Below are positions 20,601 through 59,400 of a stretch of DNA of 64,000 nucleotides, piece after piece. Where the stretch lies: the NCBI RefSeq assembly GCF_964355755.1, contig NC_092672.1, positions 37,258,501-37,322,500 on the forward strand, given 5' to 3'. Every line of letters starts with the position of its first letter. Position 1 is the first letter of the stretch. The DNA comes from Antedon mediterranea. Its lineage: Eukaryota > Echinodermata > Crinoidea > Comatulida > Antedonidae. The notes under the pieces were generated by a model, which was given only the letters and a program-made list of their open reading frames with translations, did not search any database and was not told the DNA's origin. The position numbers were made by a program, and so were the translations under genes.

Positions 20601-23100
20601 AGAGTCAAATCACCGTTCACATCTAGGAATCATAGACTCTACATGAGAATGACAGTAGAGTCAAATCACCGTTCACATCTAGGAATCATAGACTCTACAT
20701 GAGAATGACAGTAGAGTCAAATCACCGTTCACATCTAGGAATCATAGACCCTACATGAGAATGACAGTAGAGTCAAATCACCGTTCACATCTAGGAATCA
20801 TAGACCCTACATGAGAATGACAGTAGAGTCAAATCACCGTTCACATCTAGGAATCCTAGACCCTACATGAGAATGACAGTAGAGTCAAATCACCGTTCAC
20901 ATCTAGGAATCATAGACCCTACATGAGAATGACAGTAGAGTCAAATCACCGTTCACATCTAGGAATCATAGACCCTACATGAGAATGACAGTAGAGTCAA
21001 ATCACCGTTCACATCTAGGAATCATAGACTCTACTTGAGAATGACAGTAGAGTCAAATCACCGTTCACATCTAGGAATCATAGACCCTACATGAGAATGA
21101 CAGTAGAGTCAAATCACCGTTCACATCTAGGAATCATAGACCCTACTTGAGAATGACAGTAGAGTCAAATCACCGTTCACATCTAGGAATCATAGACCCT
21201 ACATGAGAATGACAGTAGAGTCAAATCACCGTTCACATCTAGGAATCATAGACCCTACATGAGAATGACAGTAGAGTCAAATCACCGTTCACATCTAGGA
21301 ATCATAGACCCTACTTGAGAATGACAGTAGAGTCAAATCACCGTTCACATCTAGGAATCATAGACCCTACTTGAGAATGACAGTAGAGTCAAATCACCGT
21401 TCACATCTAGGAATCATAGACCCTACATGAGAATGACAGTAGAGTCAAATCACCGTTCACATCTAGGAATCATAGACCCTACATGAGAATGACAGTAGAG
21501 TCAAATCACCGTTCACATCTAGGAATCATAGACCCTACATGAGAATGACAGTAGAGTCAAATCACCGTTCACATCTAGGAATCCTAGACCCTACATGAGA
21601 ATGACAGTAGAGTCAAATCACCGTTCACATCTAGGAATCATAGACCCTACATGAGAATGACAGTAGAGTCAAATCACCGTTCACATCTAGGAATCATAGA
21701 CCCTACTTGAGAATGACAGTAGAGTCAAATCACCGTTCACATCTAGGAATCATAGACCCTACATGAGAATGACAGTAGAGTCAAATCACCGTTCACATCT
21801 AGGAATCATAGACCCTACATGAGAATGACAGTAGAGTCAAATCACCGTTCACATCTAGGAATCATAGACCCTACTTGAGAATGACAGTAGAGTCAAATCA
21901 CCGTTCACATCTAGGAATCATAGACCCTACATGAGAATGACAGTAGAGTCAAATCACCGTTCACATCTAGGAATCATAGACCCTACTTGAGAATGACAGT
22001 AGAGTCAAATCACCGTTCACATCTAGGAATCATAGACCCTACATGAGAATGACAGTAGAGTCAAATCACCGTTCACATCTAGGAATCATAGACCCTACAT
22101 GAGAATGACAGTAGAGTCAAATCACCGTTCACATCTAGGAATCATAGACCCTACATGAGAATGACAGTAGAGTCAAATCACCGTTCACATCTAGGAATCA
22201 TAGACCCTACATGAGAATGACAGTAGAGTCAAATCACCGTTCACATCTAGGAATCATAGACCCTACATGAGAATGACAGTAGAGTCAAATCACCGTTCAC
22301 ATCTAGGAATCATAGACCCTACTTGAGAATGACAGTAGAGTCAAATCACCGTTCACATCTAGGAATCATAGACCCTACATGAGAATGACAGTAGAGTCAA
22401 ATCACCGTTCACATCTAGGAATCATAGACCCTACTTGAGAATGACAGTAGAGTCAAATCACCGTTCACATCTAGGAATCATAGACCCTACTTGAGAATGA
22501 CAGTAGAGTCAAATCACCGTTCACATCTAGGAATCATAGACCCTACATGAGAATGACAGTAGAGTCAAATCACCGTTCACATCTAGGAATCATAGACCCT
22601 ACATGAGAATGACAGTAGAGTCAAATCACCGTTCACATCTAGGAATCATAGACCCTACATGAGAATGACAGTAGAGTCAAATCACCGTTCACATCTAGGA
22701 ATCATAGACCCTACATGAGAATGACAGTAGAGTCAAATCACCGTTCACATCTAGGAATCATAGACCCTACATGAGAATGACAGTAGAGTCAAATCACCGT
22801 TCACATCTAGGAATCATAGACTCTACATGAGAATGACAGTAGAGTCAAATCACCGTTCACATCTAGGAATCATAGACCCTACATGAGAATGACAGTAGAG
22901 TCAAATCACCGTTCACATCTAGGAATCATAGACCCTACTTGAGAATGACAGTAGAGTCAAATCACCGTTCACATCTAGGAATCATAGACCCTACATGAGA
23001 ATGACAGTAGAGTCAAATCACCGTTCACATCTAGGAATCATAGACCCTACATGAGAATGACAGTAGAGTCAAATCACCGTTCACATCTAGGAATCATAGA
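14645..23100. repeat. Satellite array: 151 tandem copies of a 56-bp unit
   Basis: The unit runs from CCCTACATGAGAATGACAGT through AGAGTCAAATCACCGTTCAC to ATCTAGGAATCATAGA. First and last unit boundaries are exactly 151 x 56 = 8,456 bp apart, and the phase checked at several points is kept, so I see no indel. Units vary at four main positions: CCC/CTC/CAC at the start, CATGAG/CTTGAG, GTCAAA/GTTAAA, and AATCATAG/AATCCTAG. The order of variants shows a higher-order duplication: units 9-70 (15,093-18,564) recur as units 74-140 (18,733-22,484). The unit is not a multiple of three and has stops in all frames, so it is not coding. Confidence 0.98.
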
Positions 23101-23670
23101 CCCATTTTGATCGAAAATTTAATGATTTCTTTCTATTTTGTATAGGCTACACTAATAGTTAATAGTGAAAAAAGTTACGCGGCTTTAAATTTTAAATATT
23201 TTTTAAGTTCACTTAGTTAGGAAGACTTAGGTTTATTGTAAAATTCATTTAGGCCCTGTATAAATGTATTATAATACTATAATTAACGTCCTCCTTGTCT
23301 TAAGTAGTAATAAACGTGTTATAATGTAATAAATTTAAGTTGCCTGTTGGTTGTTATTAGACAGCGGAGGAATCGTTCAGTAATTTGACTATAAGCCCGA
23401 TTTTATGAACATAATAACTGAACACTCACTGAATGTTATTTTCATGTTATTATAGCTTGGGGATTTAAAATAAATCTTCTCTCCAGTTCTTATTAATAAT
23501 AGATTTTTATTTTTCTTCGTCGTTAAATTTCCCCAGTGTTGATCAAATTAACAACAATGTTATAAATAATGAAAATAATATGTTATGGTGATGACAATAT
23601 GAAAGACATTATTAATGTAAATAAAAGTGGTGTTTACGCCACAAAAGAGAGAAAAAAAACCAGACTAAGG
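23101..23670. other. AT-rich non-coding DNA after the satellite
   Basis: I see no gene, RNA or repeat that I can name here. Confidence 0.4.
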
Positions 23671-24868: not shown

Positions 24869-26028
24869 TTAACGCGATGCTGCTCGAGCTTTCCTATAGC
24901 ATTACATTGTTGTCTCTGTTTGGTATATACTTTTCCACGAATTTTATAAATAATCCAACCTAGTTACGTACCAACGTATGATATTTCATGTTCCATTTAT
25001 AACACATTAATCATATAATGTGCTGATGTTAAGACTATCCAGCAAAACCCATTATCTGTTTATTTTATTATTCTTTTGCTATGTATTTTTTAATTTATCA
25101 ACACTAATGGACTGGATGTGGTTTTTATGTCAGTTTTCCGCTTCGGTAAAAAGTATTTGATTACTTATTTATTCATATTACTTTGGGGAACCACTGAGGA
25201 GTTCAAGGGTATAAATTCAATGACGCAATAATATTATATATATAAACCAATGTACTATACAGATTAATCTGAAATCTGAAATGATTCTCTCTAATTTGTG
25301 TTTATGAAAAGATTTTGCGATTCGGTTAAATCAGACAAATATAATAAATGAATACCCACAGGAACAAACTACGTTAATACAATGGCTCACAATCTTTTAA
25401 CTTGAAAGTTTGGTGGTATGATAAATGATTTATCTAATATATCTATGTGATTTTTATTTCAGTATAACATTAAAAAGAGGCAAATATTGAAATTCGTCAG
25501 ATGATACGCACAATCAAGGAAGCGAATAAATATGGCGTTTTCATTTCCTCTATCAACAGATTGTCTTTGTGTATCTATATATAAATTTACGTAAGGGCAA
25601 AATTCGGTAAATCGCGCCTTACTTCTAGAATTTTTACTCGATGGTATGTAAAGTTGGTTCGTACTTTCGGTACTGATTTTAACCACCTGATGTAACCCTG
25701 TTTACTAATTAAATTAAGTTAGATAATTAGTTATTGACGATTAAAACGAATTTAGGTTCAACGATTTGCCCCAAATAGGGGTGTTTTCCGATCGTGGTAT
25801 ACACTGTCTAATGGATGTCCATCTTGAAAAATACCCGCCACAAAAATGCGAGGAGGCTTCGCATTTTCCTATCTCCTCCTACGATAATTGTTTTTAATAG
25901 CTGAAAACCGGTTGAACAGTTCGAGTACAGCATCATAATGTTGAAGACAGGCCGATTTTCTTTAAAAAATACTATTTTGATACATTTAATATACGTTTTT
26001 ACAAATGTATTGATTTGTGATGAATGGA
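24869..26028. other. Gene-free AT-rich stretch
   Basis: No gene is supported. A segment at about 25,495-25,575 (GATGATACGCACAATCAAGG and onward) recurs diverged at about 27,443-27,520, both followed by a CTCTGTCAACAGATT-like sequence. This marks a low-copy dispersed repeat. Confidence 0.4.
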
Positions 26029-26814
26029 ACATTCCAAATTATTTGGTTTAACCATACAGGTATAGATTTAGATTTATGGGCCCCCTTGGAGAATAAACAT
26101 AAATAGTATTGCAATGCTGTACAATACTGTTAAGGTATTAACCACTTTTGATCGCAATTTGAATCGCAAATTTCTTACTGTGAGTGTTGGTACTGTTAGA
26201 TGTAATATAAAAATATATACAAATAAACTTTATTACTGTGAGTGTGGGTAGGCCCTACTGTTAGATTATAAACATATAATATACAAATAAACATTCCAAA
26301 TTATTTGGTTTAACCATAGAGGTAGAGATTTAGATTTATGGGCCCCCTTGGAGAATAAACATAAATAGTATTGCAATGCTGTACAATACTGTTAAGGTAT
26401 TAACCACTTTTGATCGCAATTTGAATCGCAAATTTCTTACTGTGAGTGTTGGTACTGTTAGATGTAATATAAAAATATATACAAATAAACTTTATTACTG
26501 TGAGTGTGGGTAGGCCCTACTGTTAGATTATAAACATATAATATACAAATAAACATTCCAAATTATTTGGTTTAACCATAGAGGTAGAGATTTAGATTTA
26601 TGGGCCCCCTTGGAGAATAAACATAAATAGTATTGCAATGCTGTACAATACTGTTAAGGTATTAACCACTTTTGATCGCAATTTGAATCGCAAATTTCTT
26701 ACTGTGAGTGTTGGTACTGTTAGATGTAATATAAAAATATATACAAATAAACTTTATTACTGTGAGTGTGGGTAGGCCTTACTGTTAGATTATAAACATA
26801 TAATATACAAATAA
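26029..26814. repeat. Three tandem copies of a 262-bp unit
   Basis: The unit starts ACATTCCAAATTATTTGGTT at 26,029, 26,291 and 26,553, exactly 262 bp apart, and copies are nearly identical. Within each unit a smaller segment around TTACTGTGAGTGT(T/G)GGTA occurs twice, so an older internal duplication preceded the triplication. There is no coding frame. Confidence 0.95.
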
Positions 26815-28874
26815 ATAAACGTTATTACTGACAGTTGCTTCTCAACGTTTGTATTAATTAATAATTTAAAAATATATAAACGTCGTAGTGGTGTATCGTT
26901 ACATGTACTTTACTATTTCAATCGACTATGACAGTGAGAGTTTTAACAAAGTACCGTATTAAATCGTAAATGTTTTACTGTATTTAGTGGTATATTATTT
27001 ATAGGCCTATAAAACATTAAAAACAATATTTCGTTACTGAGTGGATAAGAATATATTTTAAAATGTTTCCTCTTTGTACCTATCTTCTTCCCCCATCCCT
27101 CAACCCTCAACTCTCTCGGAAGTAATTCCCAGGGTGCTAATTTTGGTTGACTACATAAATCATTGTGTATATTTATTCGTTTCTGTAAACGACAATGTAT
27201 TATAGTCCTGCGGTACGTACATTTGAAATCTCCATTTTTTTCTCGCTGGAAATACTGTGCATTCGAGAACCATCTGTGGGCACGACCTAGATGGTACGCG
27301 AGCGAAGCGAGCGTGCCATCTAGTAATTATGAATTTATTTATCGGAAAAAACACATCATTATCTGTTATCAGAAATATAATGCTGATTCACCACAGTTAC
27401 ACCTGTATTTGTTTTTTTAAACAACAACATTTTAAAACTCGTGGATGATACGCGCAATCAAGGAGGCGACTAAATATGGCGTTTAAATTTCCTCTGTCAA
27501 CAGATTTTGTTTATCGTTGTCTGACTATGAATTACAAGTTATTTTTCGAAATTGATCCCAGCATTGCAGACTCGTGCCGATCTTTATTACATGATGGGGG
27601 ATGAGAGCAAAGACACAGTGTATATTGCTGAATCACCACCCGTTCCATATTTAAATACCGTAGGTTTGAACAACCCTTACATTTTTGCTGGTAGATAAAT
27701 ATGTATCGAAGACAAGCAAACCAAAGAACAAGTTCGAGTTAATTTCCTTCCTCGTACCGGCAACGATTACACAACGCATGCGCTGTTTCCGTCGGGGTCA
27801 AGTTCACAACTCATCATCAAAATGCATGTATGGAATATATACCAGCAAATTAGATAAAATGAACGAAAGCTACATGATTGTGTACATAATGATGCTAGAA
27901 TGCACAAGAGTCAACGGAACCTAGTGATGATAACAGTTGGAATAATGACCAGTTGTTAAAATTGGTAAGAAATGCCATTGGTTAAACCCATTGGATCTTT
28001 CTTTATTTTTTAGGCCTACCTACTAAACAGACAATCGTATTTTTCTTTATATTATCACTGTACATAGTTAACCTCTACTTATGAGGATACCTTCGGAACC
28101 CTACGAAGTGTCACCGGGGGGGGGGGGGGGGATGTCCTCTAAATAGGGATTTGCCATATTATGTATGAACATAGTACTATTATAATACTATATTATGTAT
28201 TCCTTCTTTTTCATTTCACGGGAAAGGAGGTGTGTTGTAAAGGAGGTACAGTGTTTTGTTTGTTTTCATTGTTCATATATTATGGCGGGGGTATAAGCAA
28301 TCAAATGAATGACAGTTAGAGGCTACGAGTATGTAGGGCCGTAGCCACAAGCATTAACTGGGGGTATTTTTTTAGTTCAATTTTTGTTATGTCTCATTTG
28401 AAATAGCGCCACCAATATTTGAGAGGTTTTTTTTAGGTTTATAGAAACTTGATTGCAATTTTTCATTTGTTAAATTTATGTTAAATCAACTTTTGAAGGT
28501 CGAAATACTAACATTTTTTAGGTTAATGATTGAATTACAAGAATATATGCATACGCCTTTATAGCCAACTATTATCCATCCAGTAAGATAGGCTTACATA
28601 GTACAAAATATTCAGCTTTAATTAAAATGTATATTTTGCCCTTGGCGAACATTTTGGTAATAACCACTTGTTTTATATAATTAATATCATGATTGGATAC
28701 TTCAAAATGGACACCACAGAAGGAGAAAGCTTCAATGAATGGAAAGAAGAGCAAGACAAATATAAAATCAAAACTACAAAGAACAATAAATATATATGAC
28801 AAAACAGTTAATAGCTATTTAGAGTAGTTAGACAGATGGGATCTCTTTCGATTCTAGTTTTCATGTCATGTTAG
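26815..28874. other. Gene-free stretch with short hairpin and G-run
   Basis: No gene is supported; short open frames here lack any recognisable motif. A hairpin with arms CTAGATGG(T/C)ACGC lies at about 27,286-27,325 around GAGCGAAGCGAG, a common shape for transposon ends. A run of 16 G lies at 28,116-28,131. Confidence 0.4.
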
Positions 28875-30879: not shown

Positions 30880-33622
30880 ATGAACGTGTTGCTGCTTAGC
30901 GTGCTTGTCTTTCTACTGGTATTACGAGGTAGGTACGACTATTCTTTACAGTATACAGTTTTAAGATTAAGTACCCCTACGTTTCGGTAAAATACAAAAC
31001 AAAAAAGCAAGTAATTGTTTTAGGACCTGCAATACTTTTTAGAGTCATGTATTCACCAATAACACAGGCTAAGGGAAACACACTTAAAATGTGTACAATT
31101 ATTCTAAGTGAATCCTTAAAAATTAATATTGACTTAAGTACGGCCACAGCATCAGATATTGTAGATTTCTAATCTTGATCCTAATAATGGTCTTGTTTTA
31201 TAGTTTACCTGTTTTTTTATGTTTTACTGTTTCTTATATTTTACTTGTTTAAATAAAGTTTGCGGTACACCACGTGAATATAGAACAAGAACCGTTGAGA
31301 ACTATATATACGTGGTGTATCGCAAACTTCATATCAACATTTGTTTTCGCCATGTAAATTATGCAAAATATATATATTTTACTTGTTGATAAATTATTAA
31401 ATTAAATATTTTAATAAATTACCTTGACCTTGATTCAATAATAAAGCGTCCAAAACATGATACTTTTGTGTTCACCTCATCAACATTTAGTGTTGTGGTG
31501 TTTTGTTCTAAACTAAAAATTGTCATATTATATAAAGCTCAGTTTATTTATTACCATTATCATCTACTAGGTATTTCTTCTCGAAGTAATGAATCGCTAC
31601 TTGTTGAGGAATTAATGAGGGAGTATGGCCCAGCGAGTACTCGACCTGTGCGTGTCCAGGAGGAGATTTGTCACGTCTCGATGCGCTACATAATCGCAAA
31701 CGTTATATCACTGGTAAATATTTTAAACAATTGTTGATTACGCAATAATAAAGGCTAGTGTGTCAGGCGGCGCCCGTAGGAAATGCATATTCTGCACACA
31801 AAGTTTTTTTTATCATTCTATCATTCTTTATTCACCAATGAAAAATCAGCCCCAAATTGTATTATTTCCAAAAATGGAAGTACTATCAACAATCCTGACG
31901 ACATTTCTCCACAATCGGTGAACATATGGCGAATGCTAAAACCAGTAGTACATTTTGAATCAAACCAAAATGTCTCTGAGTCAAATTCACTCGAACAATG
32001 TATATTGCCAGACATCACAGAAGAATTTGTTCAAAGTCAAATATTAGTAATGTCTGCTGGTAAAGCAACAGGTCCAGACGACGTCAGTGGAAAAATGCTA
32101 AAACTAGCTTACACACACGTGACAAAGTCATTAACCCATGTCCTAAACCTATCAATACGATGCGGACATTACACTACAGAGTGGAAAATGGCCTCTGTTA
32201 CACCTATTCACAAAGGAGGAGACAAAAGTAACACTAATAAATATAGGCCAATTTCAATCCTACCAATTGTTTCAAAAATTTTAGAAAGGTTGGTACATTC
32301 GGCCGTCTACTCGTACCTTAATGTGAATAAACTGATCCCATCTTGTCAATCAGGGTTTAGACCGTTTCACTCAACTGTAACAACGCTACATGATAACCAA
32401 CGAGTGTTTACATGCCATAGAACAGGGTAAAATGACTGGTACTGTTTTTATAGACCTGAGCAAGGCTTTTGACTCAGTTAATCATGAAACTCAAATGTAT
32501 GTGCATGTCACCATCTGTAATGGAGTGGTTTAAATCATATTTAAGTGATCGCAGTCAATATGTAAACATTGGTGGCACAAAATCGAAGACGTGGCCACTA
32601 AACATTGATGTGCCACAGGGTTCGATTTTGGGGCCACTGCTTTTTATCATTTACACAAGTGATTTACAAAATTGTATTCCTAACAACTGTAAGTTGTTCA
32701 TGTACGCTGACGATTCAACCTTGACATGTAGTTTACCAACCATAGACGGAATAGATACAAATTTAAATATGGTATTAGATATAGTACAAAATTGGGCAAA
32801 CAGAAACAAACTCACTATAAATGCAAACAAAACTAAATCAATGCTCTTCGGATCGAAAAAGAAAATATCTACTAACGCGTACAACCTTAATCTAAAAATT
32901 GCAAATATAATAATTCAGTTGAAAAGGTAAAATCTTTTAAATGCTTAGGTGTCATAATTGACGAAACGTTAAGTTGGTCACCGCATGTTGAAAAACAGTT
33001 TCTTTTAAACTAGGCATGCTAAATCGGATTCGCGACTGTATTCCACAAGGTTGCATAAACACACTACTGTATTCACTAGTCTAGTAAGGCCGTCATTAGA
33101 CTATTGTTGTACAGTATGGGGTGGCAGGTATGCATCCCATAACAAAACACTTAATAAGTGTTTAAAACGAGCTGCAAGGCTTATTTTAAAATGTCCATAT
33201 CTGACTCCTTCAGTAGACATGTTCTCAGATCCAGGCTGGCTTTCATTTTCGGACAGAGTTTCATTTAAAAGGACTGTCTTTGTATTTAAATGCATAAATA
33301 AAATGACTCCTGAATATATGACTAATATATTTACACCCTTATCCCAGTCACGTGTAACGAGGCAGTCCACATTGTTGAAGTTAAAGATTCCTTTTGCGAG
33401 AACAGAATGTTTCTCCACAAGTTTTAGTGTTGTTGGTGCAACCCTGTGGAATAGTGTCGAAGAGGAGTTAAGAACCATCACATCCTTAGGGTTATTTAAA
33501 TCAGAACTTCATAGGAAGTACTATATTCAGCAAAACGCTATTATGTAAATGGTTTTTAACTCAATGGAGGGCCCCAATGGAAATTAGTTTTTAACTGTTT
33601 GGGCTTACCCTGGGTAAACAAA

Positions 33623-33673
<51 letters not shown>

Positions 33674-36044
33674 GAAAATGGAGCAAACAAAAATAGCTTT
33701 AGCTAATAGAGGGGTTTCCCCATACGTCACCATACAAAAACACAGTATACAGTACGAATAAAAGCAATGAAATAGCCATAGCAATACATAGCAATGGAAT
33801 TGACATAATAAAGGGCATTTAATAAGAAACAGATGGCACACCATAAATCAGTAACTTGATAATTTAATTTCTGTTATATTTTTAAAAAAAATATTTTTAG
33901 ATTTAATATCTAATATATCTAAATGCAGTTAGTTCGAGTTTGATTTGACTATTTTAAAATTATTTTGTTTCATAAATACAGGACGAACCTAATCAGATAA
34001 TGACAGTTAGTGGTTGGCTAAAATATGTAAGTATAATGTTTAATGTTTAACATTCTACGTAACATTGTACATTATTACAGCACGGCGTTAAACGTTAAAA
34101 TCATATAGTATTAATAGCGCCCTCAACTTTAGGTTAGTTTTAACTGACGTTATGGGGCGCTATTTATCCATCATTTATAATGAAAGCTTTTCCGATATAC
34201 TTTTTTCTGCATGGTGCATTCATACACAAATAGGAATTTTATTTAAAAATAAAATCATGAAATACTTTGTTGACTATACGTTGGTATTTAGAACTGTAAG
34301 TTTGATTACGCAATGAGTCGAATATTAGTAAACTAAACAAATATATACAACTTGTAAATGGCCTATTGTATAAACACACAACGGTAATTCCGACATCATG
34401 ACGTAAAATTGACTTTGCTTTTGTGTTTTAGGCCTGGGTCGATGAGTATCTACAGTGGGATGCCAACGAAACCAATGTTGATTCGATACGAGTTGCGACT
34501 CATCAAATATGGCACCCGGACATTACGCTTTACAACAAGTAAGTAGTATCGTATCCTATCCAATAGGCTACAAATAAACTTACAAACGGATACGGTGCAA
34601 ATTCTAAAAATACTGTTCAGAGAGAAATTCTAAAGCTCTGTCTACACTATCAAACGTTATATGACAAAAAAGTGTAGTGTAATATAGTAGTGATATGACA
34701 TCATCATGTCCATATATGGGCACATCACATTTGTTGTCACATAAGGTTTGATAGTGTAAACACAGAACTTTATAAAATAAATTTGATATCTAAAAACGTA
34801 TTGTTTTTTTATTTTCTAGCGTTGATAGTAAATCGGAGCCTTCAAAATCAGACTTGCTCGCGACCGTGAGTTCAGACGGCTCGGTCACGTGGTCGTCACC
34901 AGCTATTTTTGTCAGTTCCTGTATCTTAGACGTTCGATATTTTCCGTTTGATACACAGATATGCGAACTAGAATTTGGGTCGTGGTCGTACGAAGGTCAC
35001 GAAGTACAACTTGGACTGATGGGTGGTGAGGAAGCTCAGCAAACTGAGTTTGCTGAAAATGGTATATGGAGTTTAGAAGATGTTGAGGTCAATGTACAAA
35101 CACGAATAGCTAGTGGTACCTATAACTACTCAACAATCAAAATGTATCTTAGGTTAAGAAGACGTTATGAGTTTTACCTGTCGAATATTATGCTTCCGTG
35201 TGTACTTCTCTCATTCATGTCGACGTTGGTATACCTGTTGCCGCCTGATTGCGGTGAAAAGATTTCTTACGGGATGACGCTCGTTCTTAGCCTTCTGGTA
35301 TTTCAACAATTCATTGCAGAAAGCCTACCACCAGTTGCAGACGGAAGTCCTATTTTAGGTTAGAATGTAAAATTAGTAATGTTTATATCTATAATTATAA
35401 TAAAAGCTGCACAACTTTGTAGTGTGTATTTTTGCAAATCATGACATCATCATCATATGGGTATCACATGACCTTGACATTATTCACTGACACTCTTTTC
35501 AACATTCGTGTGAGAACTTGAGATTGTATAGACGCCATTGAATTAATCTAATCTATTTTTGTTTTATTTACCAGGTTTATATTTTACATTCGTTATAACG
35601 ATGGGATGCCTAGCCATGGTAGTGACGTCAGTCGTTCTCAATATATATTGTGGCAGAGATGTTAAGCCTCCGCCACGTTGGATGGAAATACTACTTCTAG
35701 AAAAGCTGGGCCCTTACATTGGAAGATATCGTAAAAGAAAACAGTACCTTTCCATACCCGATAATCACACAAACGGAATAGAAAATGCATTTGAGACACA
35801 AACAACTAGTTTTAAAGACAGTAAAAGTGCCGATTGTAAAAAGACATTGGAAACAAAAGGAAATGTGGATAGTGCGCATGATGCGCACAATTATAATTCT
35901 ACTGTGCATGACAATGATTTTGATAGTATGTACAACAAATGGCAACACATTTCAGTTGTAGTGGACCGGCTGCTTCTCATATGTTCAATGACTATTGTAT
36001 TAAGTGCGGCAGCAATTATTATATTAATGATATATTTACAGTGA
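30880..36044 (+). CDS. Nicotinic acetylcholine receptor subunit, non-alpha type (receptor gene 2)
   Basis: Six coding exons: 30880-30928, 31571-31713, 33982-34026, 34432-34538, 34820-35358, 35575-36044 (1,353 nt, 450 aa; all in phase). A signal peptide (MNVLLLSVLVFLLVLRG) precedes a ligand-binding domain with Cys-loop CILDVRYFPFDTQIC, WHPDITLYNN and GSVTWSSP. Four membrane segments follow. M2 follows GEK and has Gln at 15' and 16', as in gene 1. The loop C region reads ASGTYNYSTIKM and has no vicinal cysteines, so it would not supply a principal agonist face. Exons 2, 3 and 4 have exactly the lengths of gene 1 (143, 45, 107 nt), which points to a local duplication. Intron 2 contains a broken LINE and a small hairpin, and intron 4 a MITE. 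A heteromer with the product of gene 1 is plausible but inferred. Confidence 0.95.
31255..31330. repeat. 76-bp hairpin (foldback) element
   Basis: Arms AAAGTTTGCGGTACACCACG (31,255 on) and the inverse ending CGTGGTGTATCGCAAACTT pair over about 27 bp with a loop of about 18 bp. It lies in intron 1 of receptor gene 2. It may be a very small MITE or a structured RNA segment of the intron; no family is recognised. Confidence 0.7.
31750..33674 (+). mobile_element. Broken non-LTR retrotransposon (jockey/CR1-L2-like), 5' truncated
   Basis: Reverse transcriptase pieces lie in order in several frames: 31,783-32,430 (ATGPDDVSGKML, VTPIHKGGDK, YRPISILPIVSKILE, GFRPFHST), about 32,430-32,490 (FIDLSKAFDSVNH), 32,469-32,930 (VPQGSILGPLLFIIY, YADD) and 33,051-33,548 (C-terminal part). 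At least three frameshifts or stops separate them and no endonuclease domain precedes them. A short 3' UTR (GAGGGCCCCAATGG) ends in about 17 AAT repeats. It lies in intron 2 of receptor gene 2 on the same strand. Clade assignment is tentative. Confidence 0.9.
34631..34772. mobile_element. MITE, GCTCTGTCTACAC family, copy 6
   Basis: It starts TAAAGCTCTGTCTACACTAT and ends TTTGATAGTGTAAACACAGA, with a short ACATCATCATGTCC interior. It lies in intron 4 of receptor gene 2. Confidence 0.8.
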
Positions 36045-47471: not shown

Positions 47472-50400
47472 ATGGAGGTAAGTGTAAACATCAAGAAGAA
47501 AATAATCTTGATAAGCACACTTGTTGATAGTTTTATATTAGGAGGACCGGCGTATGGATGGCCATCTCTTGTCTTTGTTCTTCGGGACAGGGGCTACTTC
47601 AGCGATTTATGTGTGAACAGTGACCAGGCCAATAGTGGTAACAACAGTTCATTTGATCAGAATATTGAATCACGTTATCCGACATGCACAGAACAAGACG
47701 CACGCCTTCAGCTTGTATTTATCATCGGAATATTTGGGCACCAATCCGGTGCACTGATATTTGGTTTTATTTACGATAAATTCGGCACCAGAATAGCAAG
47801 AATAATCAGCAGGTTTGTATAAAAACTGTTTATTATAACTACCGAAGTCATAAATTGACCACCTCATTTCGTTAAGAAAATAAGACTTTAAATAGGCTAA
47901 ACCCGTTACCAATGTCGAGTTTAATATCTAGTTAGATGCTCTGAGCAATGAAACCGTTAAAATATCAAGAAAATATCACTGTTTCTACAGCTACATTGTT
48001 TTGTTTTTACTTTTGAATAAAAAATAGAAATTCAATTTTTGTAAAAAACTATTTCACTGGTGACAATGATGTTTATACTGTAGATTTGAAGAGAAATAAA
48101 AAAAAAGTAATATAATATATGTAAGAAACTGTAATGTTATTTCTTTTTCTGTGTAGTACACTCATTCTGTTAGCATGTCTGATATTTGCATTTAGCGGAC
48201 CATCAACATCCAATCTCACTTTTATTGCATTACATCTTTTGGCAACTGGAAGTTCCAATCTTATTGTAACAAACATACAGGTAAAATGTAATTTAGTAAA
48301 ACATAGCATCCTTTTTGATAAGATTTTTTTAAATAAAAAAAAATATAGGCCTAAATGTACCTACTTTTCTATATTTTTTTATTAAAAAAACTATATTCAG
48401 CCAATAACAATAATTGTAATGTAAAGAAGGAAAGCAAATGTATGAAATGTTCCGAATGTTTTCTTGACAATTACTTCATTTTTTCTAAAGGTTGGAAATA
48501 TCTTCGGTAACCGTCGTTCAACTGTTATTGGGCTTATTTCTGGCGCGTGTGGATCGTCTGCCGTCATAATGGTTTTTATACAGGTTTGTGGTCATACTTT
48601 ACTAAAGCATTTGTGTACATATCACGTATCCGCGTTAACGGACGCATTCAGCGACAGCGCCCTCAGGTTTGGCAGTTAGCGCGTATCGCGATACGCTTCA
48701 CTGGTTTGTTTTGAAATTTCGTCGCCGATTCGTATAAATATCAATAGTACCCCCTGTTTGTTTCCCTGTTTTAAGACAAAGTAAATCAACAAACTCAACG
48801 TAAGTTATATTTTTAAAATATATTAAACAAGATTTACACATACGTGTAAAATTTATAATTTATCTCAACTTTATAATGTTGGAAAAGTTTGATCATTTTA
48901 TTTAGTGATAGGCCTAGATTTCGTCAATGACGAAGTCCGCAAAACTAATCTAGGTACTTAAGTATCTGCTTATATTTCTTTACACGAAGTTTTTGGTAAT
49001 AAATGAAATGGTTTAAATTAAATTTGTATTAAAATAGAGACAAAATATCCTAGTAAGACTTGGGAAATAATTATTTTTTTATAATTATGTTAGAATGTTT
49101 TACTGCTATTTAATAAGCCTATAATTAGTATTTTAGGCCTAGGCATAGTATTAATCAACATAAGTAGGCCTACTATGTGCTTTGTATAGACATACCAGAC
49201 CTGTACCTGTATACCAGATAAGTACATTAGAATAGAGTAATCATAATTTTTTTTTTTTTTGGCAGATTGATGGAAAACCACAAACAAATACTGTGTACAC
49301 TCTGCAGAGTGTGTGGTATTAAATTAAACAAAGCCGGCTCTCGGTCAAAGAAAGTGGCAGACTATTGGGAACAGCTTAATGTTAGCAGAGATGAAGATAG
49401 TAGCGTAACTCCATCGTCATTCTGTAATCTCTGCTACATCAAGTGTGTTGTCCAAAAACAACAAATTTCCTGCAAGGACTGGCCGCCACATAAACGAATA
49501 GGATGTAACATCTGTGAAGATAAACTACGAAAAGGTTAGTTAATACTGGTAGAGAAAATTTATTTTGTTTATATTTTTAATGTACAGCAAATACTTTTAA
49601 AGCCATTGTTAATTGTTATCACATAGGTGGAAGGCCAAAGAAAAAGAAGAGGGGATGTGGAAATGCAGAGTGTCAAAGAAAAATGACTCATACCTCATCA
49701 GTTACCAAGCATTTTGAACCAATAAACACAACACTAACAACTATTCCCGATTCTTACAACATTATCGGTTCTCTAAGACCATTCATGTGTTGCATCTGTA
49801 ATGTATTGTGTGAATGTCCTGTCGAGTTACCATGTCATCATGTTGCTTGTAAAGCATGTGTTAATACTTGTTTTGTTGATGTCGAGTTCATGATTTGTCC
49901 TACCTGTTTAACTAATGTACACTACTTGTCTGTCACTGCTGTACCTGATCTTTTCATTCAATGTTATATGTCTGTTGCTGTCAAATGTAAGAAATGTCAG
50001 TGTCAGTTTGAATGTCGACAGTGTAATACACATGTGTGTGTCTTAAAAGAACACACTTATGCAAAACAACCTTCCACAAGCCCTGTGCAAGCGAATGTCG
50101 AAGTTTTAGGGCACCAACTACTGTCTGCCAAAACAGCAGAAAATGGTATAGCTACCTTCAGATCAAAGGGGCAGGTACAATACATTTCTTTATTTTCTCA
50201 TAATTACAATTGACCGTGTACATACTATACTGTTAAATTTATTCATATTTTCTTTTTTGTTTTGAAGACGGTTAGGTATATGAAGATACCTGCAGTTAGA
50301 GTGTCGTCAAATACAGCATCAAAAAAAACCAAAGACAGGAGGACACACCAGGTACAAAAGTTGATTGTTAATGTTTTATAAGGGAACTTCTGAATCAATC

Positions 50401-53400
50401 GTCAATTTCAACAACTGATACCTTTGCTTTCACAGATTCAACAATTCAGAAAACTGATAAGTGGAGAAGATGCTGAATTAGAACAACACAGACACGAATT
50501 TTCCCAATTAAATGAAGAATTAAAGACTATGCTTCAAACACCCATTAGGATGCCCCAAGGAGATATACTCTCAATGAGAACTCACCTTGGACTAAGTGGC
50601 TCTAGAACAAGATTATTAAAAAGGTATATTTTATTATTTAGACATTTATTTATTCTGAAATAAAACCAAATTATTATTTCAACCTATTATTCAATCTACT
50701 TCATTTAAAATAAGCATCCGTTCCAAACTATTATTTCTTCTATTTTTAGATGGTTAGCAAAGTACCGGGTCGTTTGTGAATGCGAAGCCAGTATTGGCTG
50801 TCAAGTTGATGAGATCATAGGCGACAATCTGACATCTGAGTATGTGCCATTGCTAGTGAAAGATACCAAGACAGATGAGTTGTTGCTCACAGATGTGCCA
50901 TTAGTTGTAGTGAAAAACTTAAGAGTGAAAGTAACACAATTGTTAGATGAGCTACAAAGGTATAAATACACACGTTTATCAAATGTTCTTTCTTTTTTTC
51001 ATTAGATTTTTTTTTCAAAGCATTTGAAATATGAACACAATATTGTTTTATTATTGCTTTTAGTCTTGATATGCTTACTTGGCACAATGGTTTGATACCA
51101 GAAAATAAAATATGGATTAAACTAGGCGGAGACAAAGGAGGAGGAACTTACAAATTTATGCTGCAAATTGGCAATGTTGACCGGCCCAATTCTTTGAAAA
51201 ATACAGTTACAATTTTGATATGGGAAGCAGGCGATTGCACCTACAATTTAAAAACAGGAATGGAGAGAATTAGGAACCAAGTTGAAGACCTCAAGACATT
51301 GGTGTGGAAGTAAGTAGTTTATATCATAACAGTTCTGACAATTTATAAAAGTATTTACTATTTATGATTTCACTATATGTTTTGATTTATTTTTATTTTA
51401 TTTCAGTGGAGAAGAAATTGAATTATTTGCATTCAGCTACAGTACTATAAATACAAATGTCGTGTTTATGGATTGTCTGAAGCAAAGTGGTAAGTATGTA
51501 TTTTTTATGTTTCATAATTCTGTACATAATATATACCTCTTCCTTTATTTCAGTGGAAAAGAAATTGAATTGTTTGCTTTCGGGGATTACGAATATGAAT
51601 GCCGTGTTTACGGATTATCCGGAGCAAGTGGTAAGTACTGTAATTCTAATACACTGGAACCTAGTATTATATTAGGCAATATCTCATAAATAGTTTAATA
51701 CTAAAAAAATGTATTTTTTATAGGACGACACTTTTGCTTATATTGCCTGAGTTCGAAGGGTAAAGTGGATTTAACAAAAAGATCTCTAGAATCTATGAAG
51801 AAAGATTTGGAAAGTTTTGCAAGCAATGGAAGCATGTTGAAAAATGCGAAGTTTCACAACAACGTAATAAGTTCACCAATACTTGACATTGACATTGATC
51901 ATGTAAGTACTGTAAAGCTCATAGATTGATCAAACTGTTTGTTTGATAAGAGTTGATAAGTTGATGCTTTTTATATCAGAAAAATTATATATATAATTTC
52001 TGCCTTGTATGATTAATGTTTGAATAAATATACCATCATCAGTTTTAAATAAAGAATGTTTCATTACAATTAGGTTTGTCCACCTGGACTGCATATTAGC
52101 TTAGGCCTTGGGTTGAAGCATTATCAAAGTTTAGAGGATGCATGCCACACACTCGATAAAAAGATGGCCCAACAAGCTGACGGCATCAATGCAAGCATTG
52201 CTCGTAAAGAGTACATTAAGGTACATTATAATTTCATTTGTTGGTACCCTGTATACAGAGCATTCCATCCATGTTACTTACAATGACCCTTTTAACCCTA
52301 TTTTTCAGTTAGTGGAACATAATGAATGTTTGCGTTACCATTTAAATGAAAAGGAAAATCTGGAACAGGAGATAGGCCAAATGACTGATTATTTTAATGC
52401 TTTTAATTTACTTGGTCATGGAAATGATGATTGTGCAATTGAACTGATTACACAGATTAATCAGAAAAGGGAGAAATTAAATGCTCATGTAAGTATAAGA
52501 AATATTTTATTGTTATTATTGAACAAAGCAAATTGAATGAGAAAACTATGTGAATTATGTCATGATTATTTTGTAGAATGAACATATTGAAGCCACGCCA
52601 CCGTCTCCAACTTTTTTGAAGAGAACGGGTCCCATTTGTGAGGAGTTGGACAAACGCTTGATCAAAATGGGCATAACAAGGCAGGCATACTGGGGACAGT
52701 GTTTTGTTGGGAACCATATCCATAAATTGTACATGGTAGGTATAAAGCTGACGTTGATGACTTACAAATGTGGCATGGGCTGTTTCAGTTTTTTTTTAAT
52801 AATTGCATTTTGAATAAACAATAAATTAAATCATTTCAGACAACAAATATTAAATATTTAATGGATGGAATAACCCACACTGTCCAAGCCATTTGTCCAA
52901 CTCTTTTGAAGGAGGCTGAAGATGTAGCTGTGGCCTACACAAAGTTATTTAATGCATTTGGAGCCTGCCACAGATTATACAATTCAGCAGAACAATTCGG
53001 GAATGCTGAAATTGATCAGTTGCGTATGTACAGTACAGAAATCTTTGTTAAATTTTAAATAATTGCATATTTATTATTAAATAAATATTAAGCATTCAGA
53101 ATATAAATGACAACTTTGCTTTTGTTACCTACAGAACAAAATATATCAATCTATAAAGAGATTTTCGCCACATTCCATGAAACGCAGCCTCCAAAATTTC
53201 ACATATTGTGCGAGCATATCATACCATGGATCAAGAAATGGGGGGTGGGATTAGGATTCCATGGCGAACAAGGTGGTGAGTCAATGCACGCAAGATTGAA
53301 TGGCATCCAACGTGACTACCGTGGCAGAACAACAGACAGATTAACCATTTTGCTGTCAGTGGTGAAAAATCACTGGGTTTCGTGCAGTCCATCAACTCTA

Positions 53401-56400
53401 AAGGCGATTCCTGAAAAGAAGGCCAATAAAAGGAAAATTGAGGAATAATGTACTGGCACTGTTGTATCTTCACAGATTGTTGTATCTTCACAGGTTTTGA
53501 AGTTGATCTTAATAATGTTTTTTTAATGGATAGAGTATAAAATTTGTAATAATACAGAAAACAAAAAATCTCATGTGCAATCTTTGTGCCCAACAACAAA
53601 TTATTAAAGATGTATTGTCTTCCTGAAAAAAATAATTATTAAAACATTTTTTGTTGAATATGCCATTTGAATGTCACCTAATAGTATCCACTTTGACCAA
53701 AAATTGGATCGAAAGAAAATGTATTTACCTAAAAAACTGTAATTTAAAGCAAAAAATAGTCAAATTGGCTGCCAGCCAATAGGTTTTTGGTTGAATTTAA
53801 CAATTTATTTTGCCATTTTATAAGTAATTATTAATCTTTATTTTTCATGTTTTTTGAGGACAATACATCTACTACTAAGTACTGTATTACGTTACTGGAT
53901 TTAAGTAGGAACTTTAAGAACATTCTTTCTTTCTTGTCCAAATATGAAAGTAATGTGAATTAGTTTACAGATTTCCTATCTCTGTTGAAAGCTGAATGTA
54001 CAACTAACTATTCAAATATTTTTCCAATCTTAGATTATCAGTTACTGATAACAAATACCTCATTAGAAATAAATGTCGTCAATGTCATCGATCAAATTCT
54101 TTGATTTATTTGATGACCTATATCAATCATTTTGTTCTCTGTTATTTTGTTATATTATATTATATTTTAATAGTGTTAACAATTCTTATAAAACAGTCTA
54201 TAAATCAATAAATTATGTTTAATTATTTTTAAAAACTGGATTACATGCCATTCAATATATTTGATTAACAATAACAATGTTGTATAATTACTTACCTATT
54301 TGACAATGGTATAATCCACAACAACCAATCACATAGTGTAAATTGGATCGTTCCATTTGTTTTATTAGGGGTAAGTACAATTGCATTTTTAAAAATATAT
54401 AATATACTTGCATCAAACACAATCGTAAACATATTTTAGTTTATAAAAAAAACACTCTATTACAGAAAATACTTTTAGAATGTGTGGTAACAATTTCCTC
54501 GCTGATAAGTATGTATTTACAGATAAGACATGCGACTATTTAATGAGGTCGGCAGTATTCTGTTGATTGCGCAATCTTTAAAAAATGGCGTTTTAATTTG
54601 ACAAACCGATAATTATAATTATAAATACTCAATTGCCATCTTCATTGTGTCGGATATAAGCAATATCAAGTTTCTTCTTGAAAAAATGAATGTTTATACA
54701 AATTGGTAAATGCTCATATTCCATGTAAATATCAGTAAAAGTTCACATTTTGCCCGGTTCCCATTCCGTATATTCAATTATTTCCCGGTTATGACCATGT
54801 GCAATCCATAGTGAAACTATCCATATTACCCATAAGACCATAGTCCATTTTCAAAAAACTTCTAATAATTGGTATTATAAAAAATTAAATAACATACAAA
54901 AATTATGTTATTTTGTACCAAAAAAAACAGCAATATTCAAACAATATTATTTTTGCTTTAAAATGTGTTCATAGTATTTTTTAAATGTTATTTAGAATGT
55001 TTATAAGTTAAAGTGTTGATGACAAGCCTAACAAATTCGTTATTTTATTGTTATGCCAACCTCAAGTGACGAAAACAACGTGGGGAGAGAAACGGAAGTA
55101 ACGGATTTTAAATGTCAACTGAATGTCAGTCACGTGCTCAATAGAGGGCGCAATTCAAAGAGATTACAGACTCTGTCTGCGCTTCGCATACTTCGCGGAT
55201 ACGATGTACGGTTAAGTAGATTACTAACTACGTACGGTTTAAGTATGATCTAACTCTACGGATTAAGTTACATTTGAAAAATAAATCAACATATTTGTTT
55301 CTTTTTTAGATTGCTTATAATGCAGGGATATCAATGATGGCAAGTTTCTCCTTTTTAGCTGGGTTAACTGTCTTCTTTACCATTAACACAGTATTATTGC
55401 CGAAATACAAGTTTCCTTGGCCTGTACCAACTGATTTGGAAAATAGGATGCAAGTGGCTACAATGTATGGTGGTACTAATGCAAATGAGTTTAATGGTAA
55501 GCAGTTTAAAACATTAATATAAACAAGGCCAACAGCCATTAAGTCGCGTGCTACAATGCATAGTGATACCGGACCGACAGACAAACAGACCGACAGACAG
55601 ACGGACCGACCGACATAGTGAACTATACTGACCGAAATTACTGAACATGTTTAAAAATGTTGAAATGTTTAAAAACATTTATATTTTTTTAATTTACACG
55701 TGCGTAGCCTGTCACTTTTGATGTGCTCGTATAACGTAATTTCGAGTTGAAAAGTAAGTCAAGAAAACAGAAATCGGGCAAAAAGAGTGCGCAATAACAT
55801 TTAACGCGCAGTGCGCGCGCAAAAATCTGCGCACTCATGGCAATTTTGTAAACGCTTAAAATTGCCTGAAACGTACTCTTATTTCATCGAAAATAAATTT
55901 TGAAAATTTTAAGCGCGCGTACGCATGCGTTACATGCGCTACGCACGTAATTGTATTGCCATATGATGATTTATGCCCTGAAATTTATGAGTACCAAATT
56001 TTATTTAATTGTGATTCATGGTTGTTAAGATATGATTACAAACGTGATTTCGTTAAATCGTGCGTAGACCGCGTAATTTTTTATTGCGCACCGTGAAAAC
56101 ATAACCACATCGATTCCTGGCCATAAGGAATATTCTGTGAAAAATTGACTTAGCTAGATTAAACTGATATCAAGATAAGGTCATAAAGCGATAAAAAGCA
56201 TAGTGATACCGGACCGACAGACAGACAGACAGACCGACAGACAGACCGACCGACCGACATAGTGAACTATAGAGTCGCTTCCACGCGAAGCGACTAAAAA
56301 GACTAAATGGGTCTTTCTATACTAAACACAATCCATTTGTTTTCTTGTTAGCTTCGGGAAGTGATCCAGCCACTATTTCTAAAAACGACACATTATGGGT

Positions 56401-59400
56401 GGATGTTAATTACAAGACACGTTTAAGTTGTCTCTCTTCTCCGATGTATTTATTATTTTTGATGTGGTTCTCAATTATTCAACTTATACATCTGTTTTAT
56501 TTGGGAACTGTAAATCCAAGATTACAGCAACTTACAGGCGACTCTACTGAAGCAAGTATGTTTTCTTAGTCCTAAACTGTGACAGTATTTATACAGTAAT
56601 TATACGACAAACTAAGTACTGATAAGTACTGGCTGCCAGAGGCGCTTGACAGTGTTACTCCCATTCTGCTTTTAAAATCTTGCTTTTTGGGTTTTAAGTA
56701 CACATTTTGAGAGTGATTTTACTACCAATATTGTTATCAGCACTTACAACTATTGTATTGTATATTCTTTTTTCTTATTTTTATCAGCTAAACTGGATTT
56801 AGAAAAGATTTTTTTATAGCTATAGCTAGGCCCTATCTAGCTGTGTGCATGCTATTATTATTATTGTGCTAGCTTATAAAAGAAAGAAAGAATATTAACA
56901 AAAGCATAGTTACCTACAAAGAAGAGGAGATCAAGGCTATGCAGAAAGCAATTAAGATAAGGGTGAAGGAACTACGGAATGAATATTTGTATGAAGAAGC
57001 AAGCAAGTTAAATGAAGCCCACCAAAATAGAAAAATATTTGATTTATGGAGAAAAGCTAAGGAGCACGGTGATGTTATAAGAAAAGCACCAAAGCCTATA
57101 AAATGTCCTGGATTACGTGAACACTTTAAAGATCACTTTAATCCAGACCAATCTAGCCTTAAAATCCCAGATGAAATTAGCACACCTCCAGAATATATTA
57201 TCAACCTGAGACAACCAGAATTTGAGATGGACAATGAACCTCCGTCCAAGAAAGAAATTATTGATGCAATCGGACATCTAAAAGGTCGCAAAGCTACCCT
57301 AGATGTCGCTTCTGAAATGTTGCAAGTCGCCACAGAGAACCCAGTATTCGTCGACCATGTACATAGACTGTTTGAGGAAATTTGGAGAACGAAAGAAGTA
57401 CCAAGTGATTGGGGACTGTCCAAATTAACAACCATTTGGAAAAAAAAAGGCAGTCCACTTGATCCATCAATGTATAGAGGAATATCAATTGGGTCTACAT
57501 TTTCAAAGATACTTATGGTTATCATTCTTTCACGTTTTTCCATCTTTTATGAAAGTCAACTTCTACGCACACAGTTTGGATTCAGGTCCAACAGAGGGTG
57601 CAATGATGCTATATATGTAATCAAGCAGATCCAGGAAATTGCGTATCGCTCAAATCGCAAACTCTATACATGCTTCATTGATTTAACAGCAGCATTCGAC
57701 CATGTGAATCGTAATCTTCTTTTCCTAAGCGTTCGTAATAGGTTTCACTTAAACCAGTCTACTACTATGATTGACATTATACAATCACTGTACAGCTCAA
57801 CGAAAGCATACCTTGCTGACGACGATCCGAGTGATGATAAGTTCGAAACATCTTCTGGGGTGCGACAGGGTGGTATTGAGAGTACCAGCATGTTTAACCA
57901 ATATTTTGATTACGTTATTAGAGTGTTCAAACAACGCTGTAAAGATGCTAGTTTGGATGGCCTAATGATACAATACCTAATTCCTATTGAAGCTACAAAT
58001 CGTGCTCAAAGATGTAAAGCACCATCAAGGGGCATCTATGACGACTTTGAAAGTGGCTATGCTGACGACTTTGCTGTAAGCTCCTGGTCACAAGAAGAAC
58101 TGCAAACCATTGTGAACATCTTGAATAAAGTATGTCTGGAATTTGGCCTAAGAATTAGTGCCCCCAAAACAGAAACCATTATATGGAACTGGAAAGAGGA
58201 AGTTGAAGAATACCCAAGATGCATCATACAAATTGGCGGCGTACACATTAACAACGTAACACACTTTAGATACCTTGGTGTATGGGCTACCTACAATGAT
58301 GTTCATATTGGAGATCAAGAAGTAAAATACAGAATCAATTCAGCCAAAGGAGCATTTGCAGAGAATAGGGCATTGCTTACCAACAGAACGATCCACCTAC
58401 AAACAAGAATGATGTTTCTTAATGGTCTAGTTAGGAGTAGACTCACCTATGGTTGCCATGCTTGGAGGGCAACAGGAAGTGAAATGTCCAAACTTAGCAC
58501 AACATACAAAACCTTCCTAAGAAGAATGCTAGTGAATGGCTTTCAAAGAGTCTGCCCACCAAACCATGTAGACATATCCTCAGATGCTGAAACAGATGAA
58601 AACTATATAGACTGGCGTTACGTAATTGATAATGACGATCTCTACAAAATTACTGGCTGTCAACCGCTAGAAGAATATGTCTACAAGCAACAATTCAACT
58701 GGATCGGACATGTAATTAGAAAAGAAAATGAAGATCCTACAAAAATTCTTACTTTTCACACAACACAAAGTAAACGAAGAGGTCGGAAGATACCATCAGT
58801 ACTTGATAGAGTTGTACAACAAAGTCAACTTACTAGATGCAACTTCATTAGAGCCTGCTTCAACAGAAATTTATAATTCCCAGCAATGTTTTAACTGTAT
58901 ATATGAACTGTTTTATAAGTTGTTTTGTGACTGTGTAATTTGGTAGTAGTCACTCTCATACTACTGTAGGCCTACATTTAAAAGTAACACATCCAAATGC
59001 CAACTTCAAGTCAATGGCTACCAGATGTCTCTGTGAGACGGTTATTTGAACCAGTACCAGTACCAGTACGAAGATGTTTTTTATAGAAGTATGTTGCAAT
59101 TTTTACATTGTTAGATTTAAGAATAAAACTTCGTTCTAAGTTTGCTGAGGTAGATAAAAGTGAGTCTAGCTCTTTGTATATTGTTGCTAAAATTAATTTA
59201 AATCTTTTCTTTTTCTAGTTTCAACATACAGTAGCATTTACACAGTTTTATATTCTACTATCATTGCATTTGCGTGGTTATGTGGAGCAGTTGTTGACAG
59301 AAATAAGATCAAAGTATCTAAAGTTAGAAATAACGATTCTAACAACCAAAGTATGTTTTGAGTTTTGTGTGTTTTTTTAGGTGTAAGTGTATTTCAGATT

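Follow-up and report, generated by a model that had tools for sequence, protein, structure and literature searches.

Background

The transposases of family Chapaev, of the CMC (CACTA-Mirage-Chapaev) group, are covered by the Pfam domain DUF1280 and have been placed with RAG1 in clade II of the RNase H-like superfamily (PMC3985635). Target site duplications of generally 3-4 bp and 5'-CAC/GTG-3' termini are given as hallmarks of these elements, with 3-bp TWA duplications for Chapaev3 (PMC4079192), and in two Chapaev subgroups a zinc domain named Chapa is followed by a RING (PMC4411706). The motifs CxxC and HxxxxH are common to EnSpm/CACTA, Mirage, Chapaev, Transib and RAG1 (PMC12730594). A RAG1-type N-terminus has also been reported in a transposon of Aplysia, N-RAG-TP (PMC8355894). 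Two further sources were of little use: PMC7642931 gives only DUF1280 counts in Hydra and other cnidarians, and PMC3630058, which deals with Chapaev3 names and with a RING in a retroelement, is not relevant here.

The locus compared with these systems lies in a stretch of 64,000 nucleotides of the crinoid Antedon mediterranea (assembly GCF_964355755.1, contig NC_092672.1, positions 37,258,501 to 37,322,500, forward strand), hereafter the window. With a probability that we put at roughly 0.93, it harbors a cut-and-paste DNA transposon of family Chapaev (CMC/CMCT clade), in which one gene was recognised, encoding a 926-aa transposase made of a Chapa zinc domain, a RING and a DUF1280/RNase H-type core with the Asp-Asp-Glu (DDE) triad and a CxxC/HxxxxH zinc site.

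Gene model and assignment to family Chapaev

The gene consists of 13 exons at 49270-53448, which join into 2781 nt, that is 926 codons closed by a stop and interrupted by none; 12 of the 12 introns have GT-AG borders. A first-pass annotation of the window had proposed this intact gene with all junctions in phase, and its placement of the RING (aa 143-182), D455, D525, C544, C547, H845, H850 and E871 proved accurate; absent from it were H606 (which aligns with His795 of RAG1), the transposon with its ends at 48623-55203 and a duplicate of exon 7 at 51407-51489. The features of the element are, in window coordinates:

48623-55203, + strand: whole transposon copy of about 6.6 kb, the same stretch being found in two other loci with unrelated flanks
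48623-48634, + strand: left terminal inverted repeat, CACGTATCCGCG, a similarity boundary in 4 of the 4 copies compared
49270-49534, + strand: exon 1, start codon and Chapa/RAG1-type zinc region (C12, C15, C52, C55, C68, H74, C79, C82)
49627-50174, + strand: exon 2, C3HC4 RING at aa 143-182 (ligands C143, C146, C158, H160, C163, C166, C179, C182), then C/H motifs at aa 209-231 aligned with the zinc-dimerisation domain of RAG1
50268-50351, + strand: exon 3
50436-50623, + strand: exon 4, inside the DUF1280 match (aa 290-510)
50750-50959, + strand: exon 5, inside the same match
51064-51309, + strand: exon 6, first catalytic Asp, D455 (GGDKGGG)
51407-51489, + strand: decayed duplicate of exon 7 (direct repeat D2), which is open and keeps the phase but lacks the second catalytic Asp
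51554-51630, + strand: exon 7, second catalytic Asp, D525 (FGDYE)
51724-51902, + strand: exon 8, C544xxC547
52074-52220, + strand: exon 9, H606, counterpart of RAG1 H795
52309-52488, + strand: exon 10
52577-52735, + strand: exon 11
52840-53023, + strand: exon 12
53135-53448, + strand: exon 13, H845, H850, catalytic E871 and stop
55194-55203, - strand: right terminal inverted repeat, without the last two bases present in the C6 copy (see below)

Splice-aware protein alignment within the same genome recovered the same 13 exons in two near-identical loci (L005 and L006), an open gene at 44% identity (L009) and another at 41% with a stop close to its C-terminal end (L010). Relatives sharing introns with the window protein have 27-44% protein identity. 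When agreement is defined as a position within one residue and the same phase, introns in common with the 12 of the window gene amounted to 9/9 in L009, 8/10 in L010, 7/9 in L014, 7/10 in L017, 7/9 in L013, 6/7 in L018 and 5/10 in L015. In L011 and L020 positions agreed at 5 and 7 sites and phases at 0 and 2, a phase comparison that is unreadable because of a frameshift in both models. Since two other loci carry the same frame and relatives share introns and phases, chance occurrence of splice sites is excluded for the 13-exon model. The duplicate of exon 7, of 83 nt versus 77 nt for exon 7 itself, is also present in the C6 and C7 copies; its use instead of exon 7 in splicing would yield a catalytically dead isoform.

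The Pfam model DUF1280 matched the window protein at E=8.3e-18 (65.2 bits against a cut-off of 25, aa 290-510), as well as six of six aligned family members. It was the only model found in the Pfam search with the window protein alone, which returned no RING or RAG1 model; the RING and the similarity to RAG1 come from searches of the PDB and with family profiles. For the latter, the window protein and loci L009-L020 provided 13 rows, from which alignments of 6 rows (A1) and of 10 cores (A2) were built, leaving out the near-identical L005 and L006 and the decayed L007 and L008. D455, D525, C544, C547, H606, H845, H850, E867 and E871, hence the DDE triad with the CxxC and HxxxxH motifs of the CMC group, were invariant in the 10 cores of A2. 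As these two motifs occur in all the groups listed above, they are a sign of membership in the clade and not in the RAG1L family. The published order of Chapa domain and RING matches aa 1-231 of the window protein, the Chapa domain having been assessed through homology to the N-terminus of RAG1, whose counterpart it is. The first-pass remark that the GGDKGGG context of the first Asp is closer to Chapaev was right. The element and Chapaev have in common the DUF1280 core, a zinc domain of the RAG1 type (Chapa) with a RING behind it (PMC4411706), CAC...GTG ends and 4-bp duplications, and comparison with published descriptions revealed no difference in kind.

Ends, copies and insertion site

The genome searched comprised 354 Mb in 18 contigs, the window being on contig 3. 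The ends of the element were defined by comparing copies; direct alignment of the two end regions did not exceed the top score among 100 shuffles. A query of 300 bases from the left end retrieved four copies (all 4 scored candidates). The sequence of 48623-55203 is found again at C6 (99.985% identity over 6581 bp) and at C7 (99.954% over 6559 bp), with base-by-base differences of 1/6580 between window and C6, 2/6555 between window and C7 and a single one between C6 and C7, whereas C5 is a further copy, more diverged and deleted. The C6 copy has both ends intact, CACGTATCCGCG...CGCGGATACGTG, and a CCAG target duplication on both sides; the C7 copy is truncated at 55178, and the stretch of C5 retrieved shows no match at the expected position of the 3' part. 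The frame is intact in three copies of the element, on three contigs.

A related family (L013 and L021-L024) displayed clean ends, CACGGCAGTTTC...GAAACTGCCGTG, in 4 of 4 copies examined, flanked by the duplications GTGC, GACC, AGTA and ATCT. The last of these proves little by itself because the L024 copy (C3:16.96 Mb) lies inside an ATCT-rich tandem repeat, which makes up most of its fetched flanks. A 4-bp duplication was seen in all five copies with both ends intact, one of the window's family and four of the related family, and the same five copies combine a duplication of 3-4 bp with 5'-CAC/GTG-3' termini. TWA duplications of the Chapaev3 type were not seen in the copies examined here. The copies, their ends and the duplications show that the element is mobile, and near-identity on three contigs, where the window copy differs from the other two at 1 and 2 positions over about 6.6 kb, points to very recent mobility; the transposon has probably been active recently.

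The window element lies within an intron of a host gene that resembles MFS transporter genes: the host exons on either side, when translated, give an MFS-like transporter sequence (MFS_1 E=5.1e-7, a match under the curated cut-off). The L021-L024 elements, together with further matches on C1, C2, C3 and C10, form a second Chapaev family with complete Chapa, RING and DDE genes; L021 and L023 contain neither frameshifts nor stops.

Relation to RAG1

The first-pass annotation had recognised a RAG1-type zinc/RING module at the N-terminus, and this was borne out. Searched alone against the PDB, the window protein had RING proteins as its top matches and reached RAG1 (1rmd) at E=0.0038; the six-lineage profile A1 retrieved RAG1 first (chain 9jpu, E=6.1e-17), aligning profile positions 4-228 to RAG1 102-379. 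Over this range, the zinc region, RING and zinc-dimerisation motifs are collinear with those of vertebrate RAG1. Aligned to RAG1 with hhalign, the zinc region without the RING gave E=1.7e-8 and the complete N-terminus E=5.4e-14; in either case none of 200 shuffles did as well. Pfam model PF12560 (RAG1_imp_bd) matched three of the six members, at best at 2.7e-7, and not the window protein itself. As judged by these comparisons, the module is real homology.

Similarity between the window core and that of vertebrate RAG1 is below single-sequence detection: BLASTP gave E=2.8, not alignable, whereas the same RAG1 core retrieved RAG1L 6b40 at E=3.4e-79. The core of the human RAG1 query used in these comparisons was verified against the PDB. 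At the profile level, hhalign of the 10 cores of A2 with one RAG1 core gave P=0.007, a score reached by 0 of 200 plain shuffles, and put seven of eight landmarks in register, as compared with at most one of eight in plain shuffles and at most five of eight in 200 shuffles with the landmarks held in place. This core-only alignment puts D455 on the second Asp of the RAG1 DGMGD motif. With A1, P was 0.03 and only the HxxxxH...E region was aligned. The full-length profile of 13 sequences, several of which lack one end, aligned end to end with RAG1 100-1010 at E=3.3e-15, most of the score coming from the N-terminus, and brought eight of eight landmarks in register (D455=D600, D525=D708, C544/C547=C727/C730, H606=H795, H845/H850=H937/H942, E871=E962). 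The distance between the two Asp residues is 70 residues in the window protein versus 108 in RAG1. In further contrast to vertebrate RAG1, the element makes 4-bp duplications and is still mobile. The middle region, equivalent to NBD/DDBD, was not significantly similar, 6 of 200 shuffles being as good. The human RAG1 core found no match in the genome at E<=1, in a search without positive control, and PF12940 found none either, an uninformative result as the controls were also silent. Taken as profile comparisons, these alignments indicate that the core is a remote homologue of that of RAG1, with landmarks in register and a score beyond that of shuffles. The earlier claim that the protein reproduces the RAG1 landmarks held as to their register; CxxC and HxxxxH are not specific to RAG1. 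An RNase H fold with D455, D525 and E871 is suggested by the alignment to RAG1 and by the literature on DUF1280.

Alternative interpretations

Some observations weigh against the assignment to family Chapaev. It draws on Pfam and on published descriptions, and AlphaFold models of single exons were of low confidence (pLDDT 35 and 45). The core-only profile A2 found no RAG1, RAG1L or Transib chain in the PDB at E<=10, its 10 matches at this threshold all falling on the helical middle part (profile 181-286). As for the element itself, the window copy has no perfect target duplication and a right end short by two bases, and both ends were seen only in C6 among the four copies of its family.

The first-pass annotation had concluded to a RAG1L relative or an intermediate form, neither of which is supported in view of the DUF1280 core, the lack of PF12940 matches (0/6) and the 4-bp duplications. 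An intermediate between Chapaev and the Transib/RAG1 lineage, nearer to RAG1 than other Chapaevs, would account for the end-to-end collinear profile alignment with its eight landmarks and for the significant homology of the zinc region to that of RAG1. We consider it improbable: Chapa followed by RING is already described in two Chapaev subgroups (PMC4411706), and in the same genome it occurs in divergent lineages, the zinc start being found in 10 and the RING in 12 of the 13 rows (counts in which L021 stands for its sister L013, the RING of L016 contains a frameshift, L019 and L020 are near twins and the N-terminus of L018 was not recovered). Because the combination is known in other Chapaevs and in divergent lineages here, it does not single out the window lineage, and no test performed here gave it special closeness to RAG1. 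The element is a well-preserved member of a described Chapaev kind and not a missing link. N-RAG-TP, likened to it by the description of its RAG1-type N-terminus, is possibly the same kind of element.

Membership in the RAG1L/ProtoRAG family (RAG1 in its transposon form), whether or not a RAG2L partner has been lost, is more doubtful still. In its favor are the RAG1-type zinc region, the RING and the zinc motifs that follow, as well as landmarks in register with RAG1; RAG1L/ProtoRAG/TransibSU proteins likewise have N-terminal zinc motifs, a RING-type zinc-dimerisation domain in some members and a DDE core in which pairs of Cys and His bind zinc (PMC7204232). However, PF12940 matched none of six members at E<=10 (above about 0.1, few matches pass the HMMER filters), and the window protein lacks the RAG1L tail motif CTT* (Cx2Cx3GHx4C, as given in PMC7204232). 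The 1.75 kb 3' of the gene (53449-55203) contain no open reading frame (ORF) above 73 aa apart from a 134-aa one on the antisense strand that overlaps exon 13, hence no RAG2L-sized ORF, as judged by stop-to-stop length, by which a gene of many small exons could be missed. Target duplications were of 4 bp in the five copies with both ends, versus 5 bp in RAG1L/ProtoRAG/TransibSU (PMC8355894). RAG1L membership was rejected on the absence of PF12940 and of the tail motif, on the 4-bp duplications and on a core that BLASTP could not align. Domestication of a transposase as a single-copy host gene, to which the intact frame with 12 introns and the location in an intron of another gene could point, is hardly credible, since each of three contigs carries a near-identical copy with a terminal repeat and the flanks of these copies are unrelated.

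Distribution and neighboring sequences

Genome searches yielded at least 81 matches to the catalytic region (128 candidates scored), at least 17 of 50 to the N-terminus and at least 57 of 86 to the last exon, all lower bounds in which several matches belong to one copy. Viral and prokaryote collections gave 472 and 126 pattern matches, respectively, none of them confirmed as relatives.

Elsewhere in the window, a satellite array at 14647-23103 contains 151 copies of a 56-bp unit (98% match) with strongly skewed base composition, and a 262-bp unit is present in three tandem copies (99% match) at 26028-26815. Two gene pieces of neurotransmitter-gated ion channels lie at 9482-10120 and 34794-36041. 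Located 3' of the element, at 56873-58873, is an open frame of 667 aa that encodes a reverse transcriptase domain (RVT_1 E=2.6e-26) and is probably a LINE; another, weak RVT piece lies at 31780-32427.

Proposed mechanism and significance

By this assignment, the Asp-Asp-Glu triad would cut the element out at its 5'-CAC ends and the excised element would be joined to target strands staggered by 4 bp. The N-terminal and middle regions would recognise the ends, the zinc domains would bind DNA or dimerise the protein, and by analogy with RAG1 the RING may serve as an E3 ubiquitin ligase. A wider proposal can be put forward tentatively, although we think it rather unlikely as a whole: the element would be a still mobile, full-length relative collinear with RAG1 from the first zinc motif (near RAG1 residue 100) to a point past the catalytic Glu; zinc/RING region and DDE core would have formed one protein before Chapaev and Transib/RAG1 split, the RING would have been kept because transposition needs it, and the duplicate of exon 7 could give a dead isoform restraining the transposase.

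Work on how adaptive immunity arose has yet to settle whether the RING N-terminus of RAG1 is ancestral or was joined late to a Transib core. The ancestral view has been argued from the domain order of Chapaev (PMC4411706), and recombination of Transib with N-RAG-TP has been described (PMC8355894). The kind of element reported here is already described in the open-access literature, and its special value lies in its preservation, its recency and a register with RAG1 that is quantified along the entire protein. Divergent Chapaev lineages with the complete architecture, several in number, coexist in one genome, one of them with near-identical, apparently recent copies, and such lineages are natural material to probe the role of zinc domains and RING in transposition.

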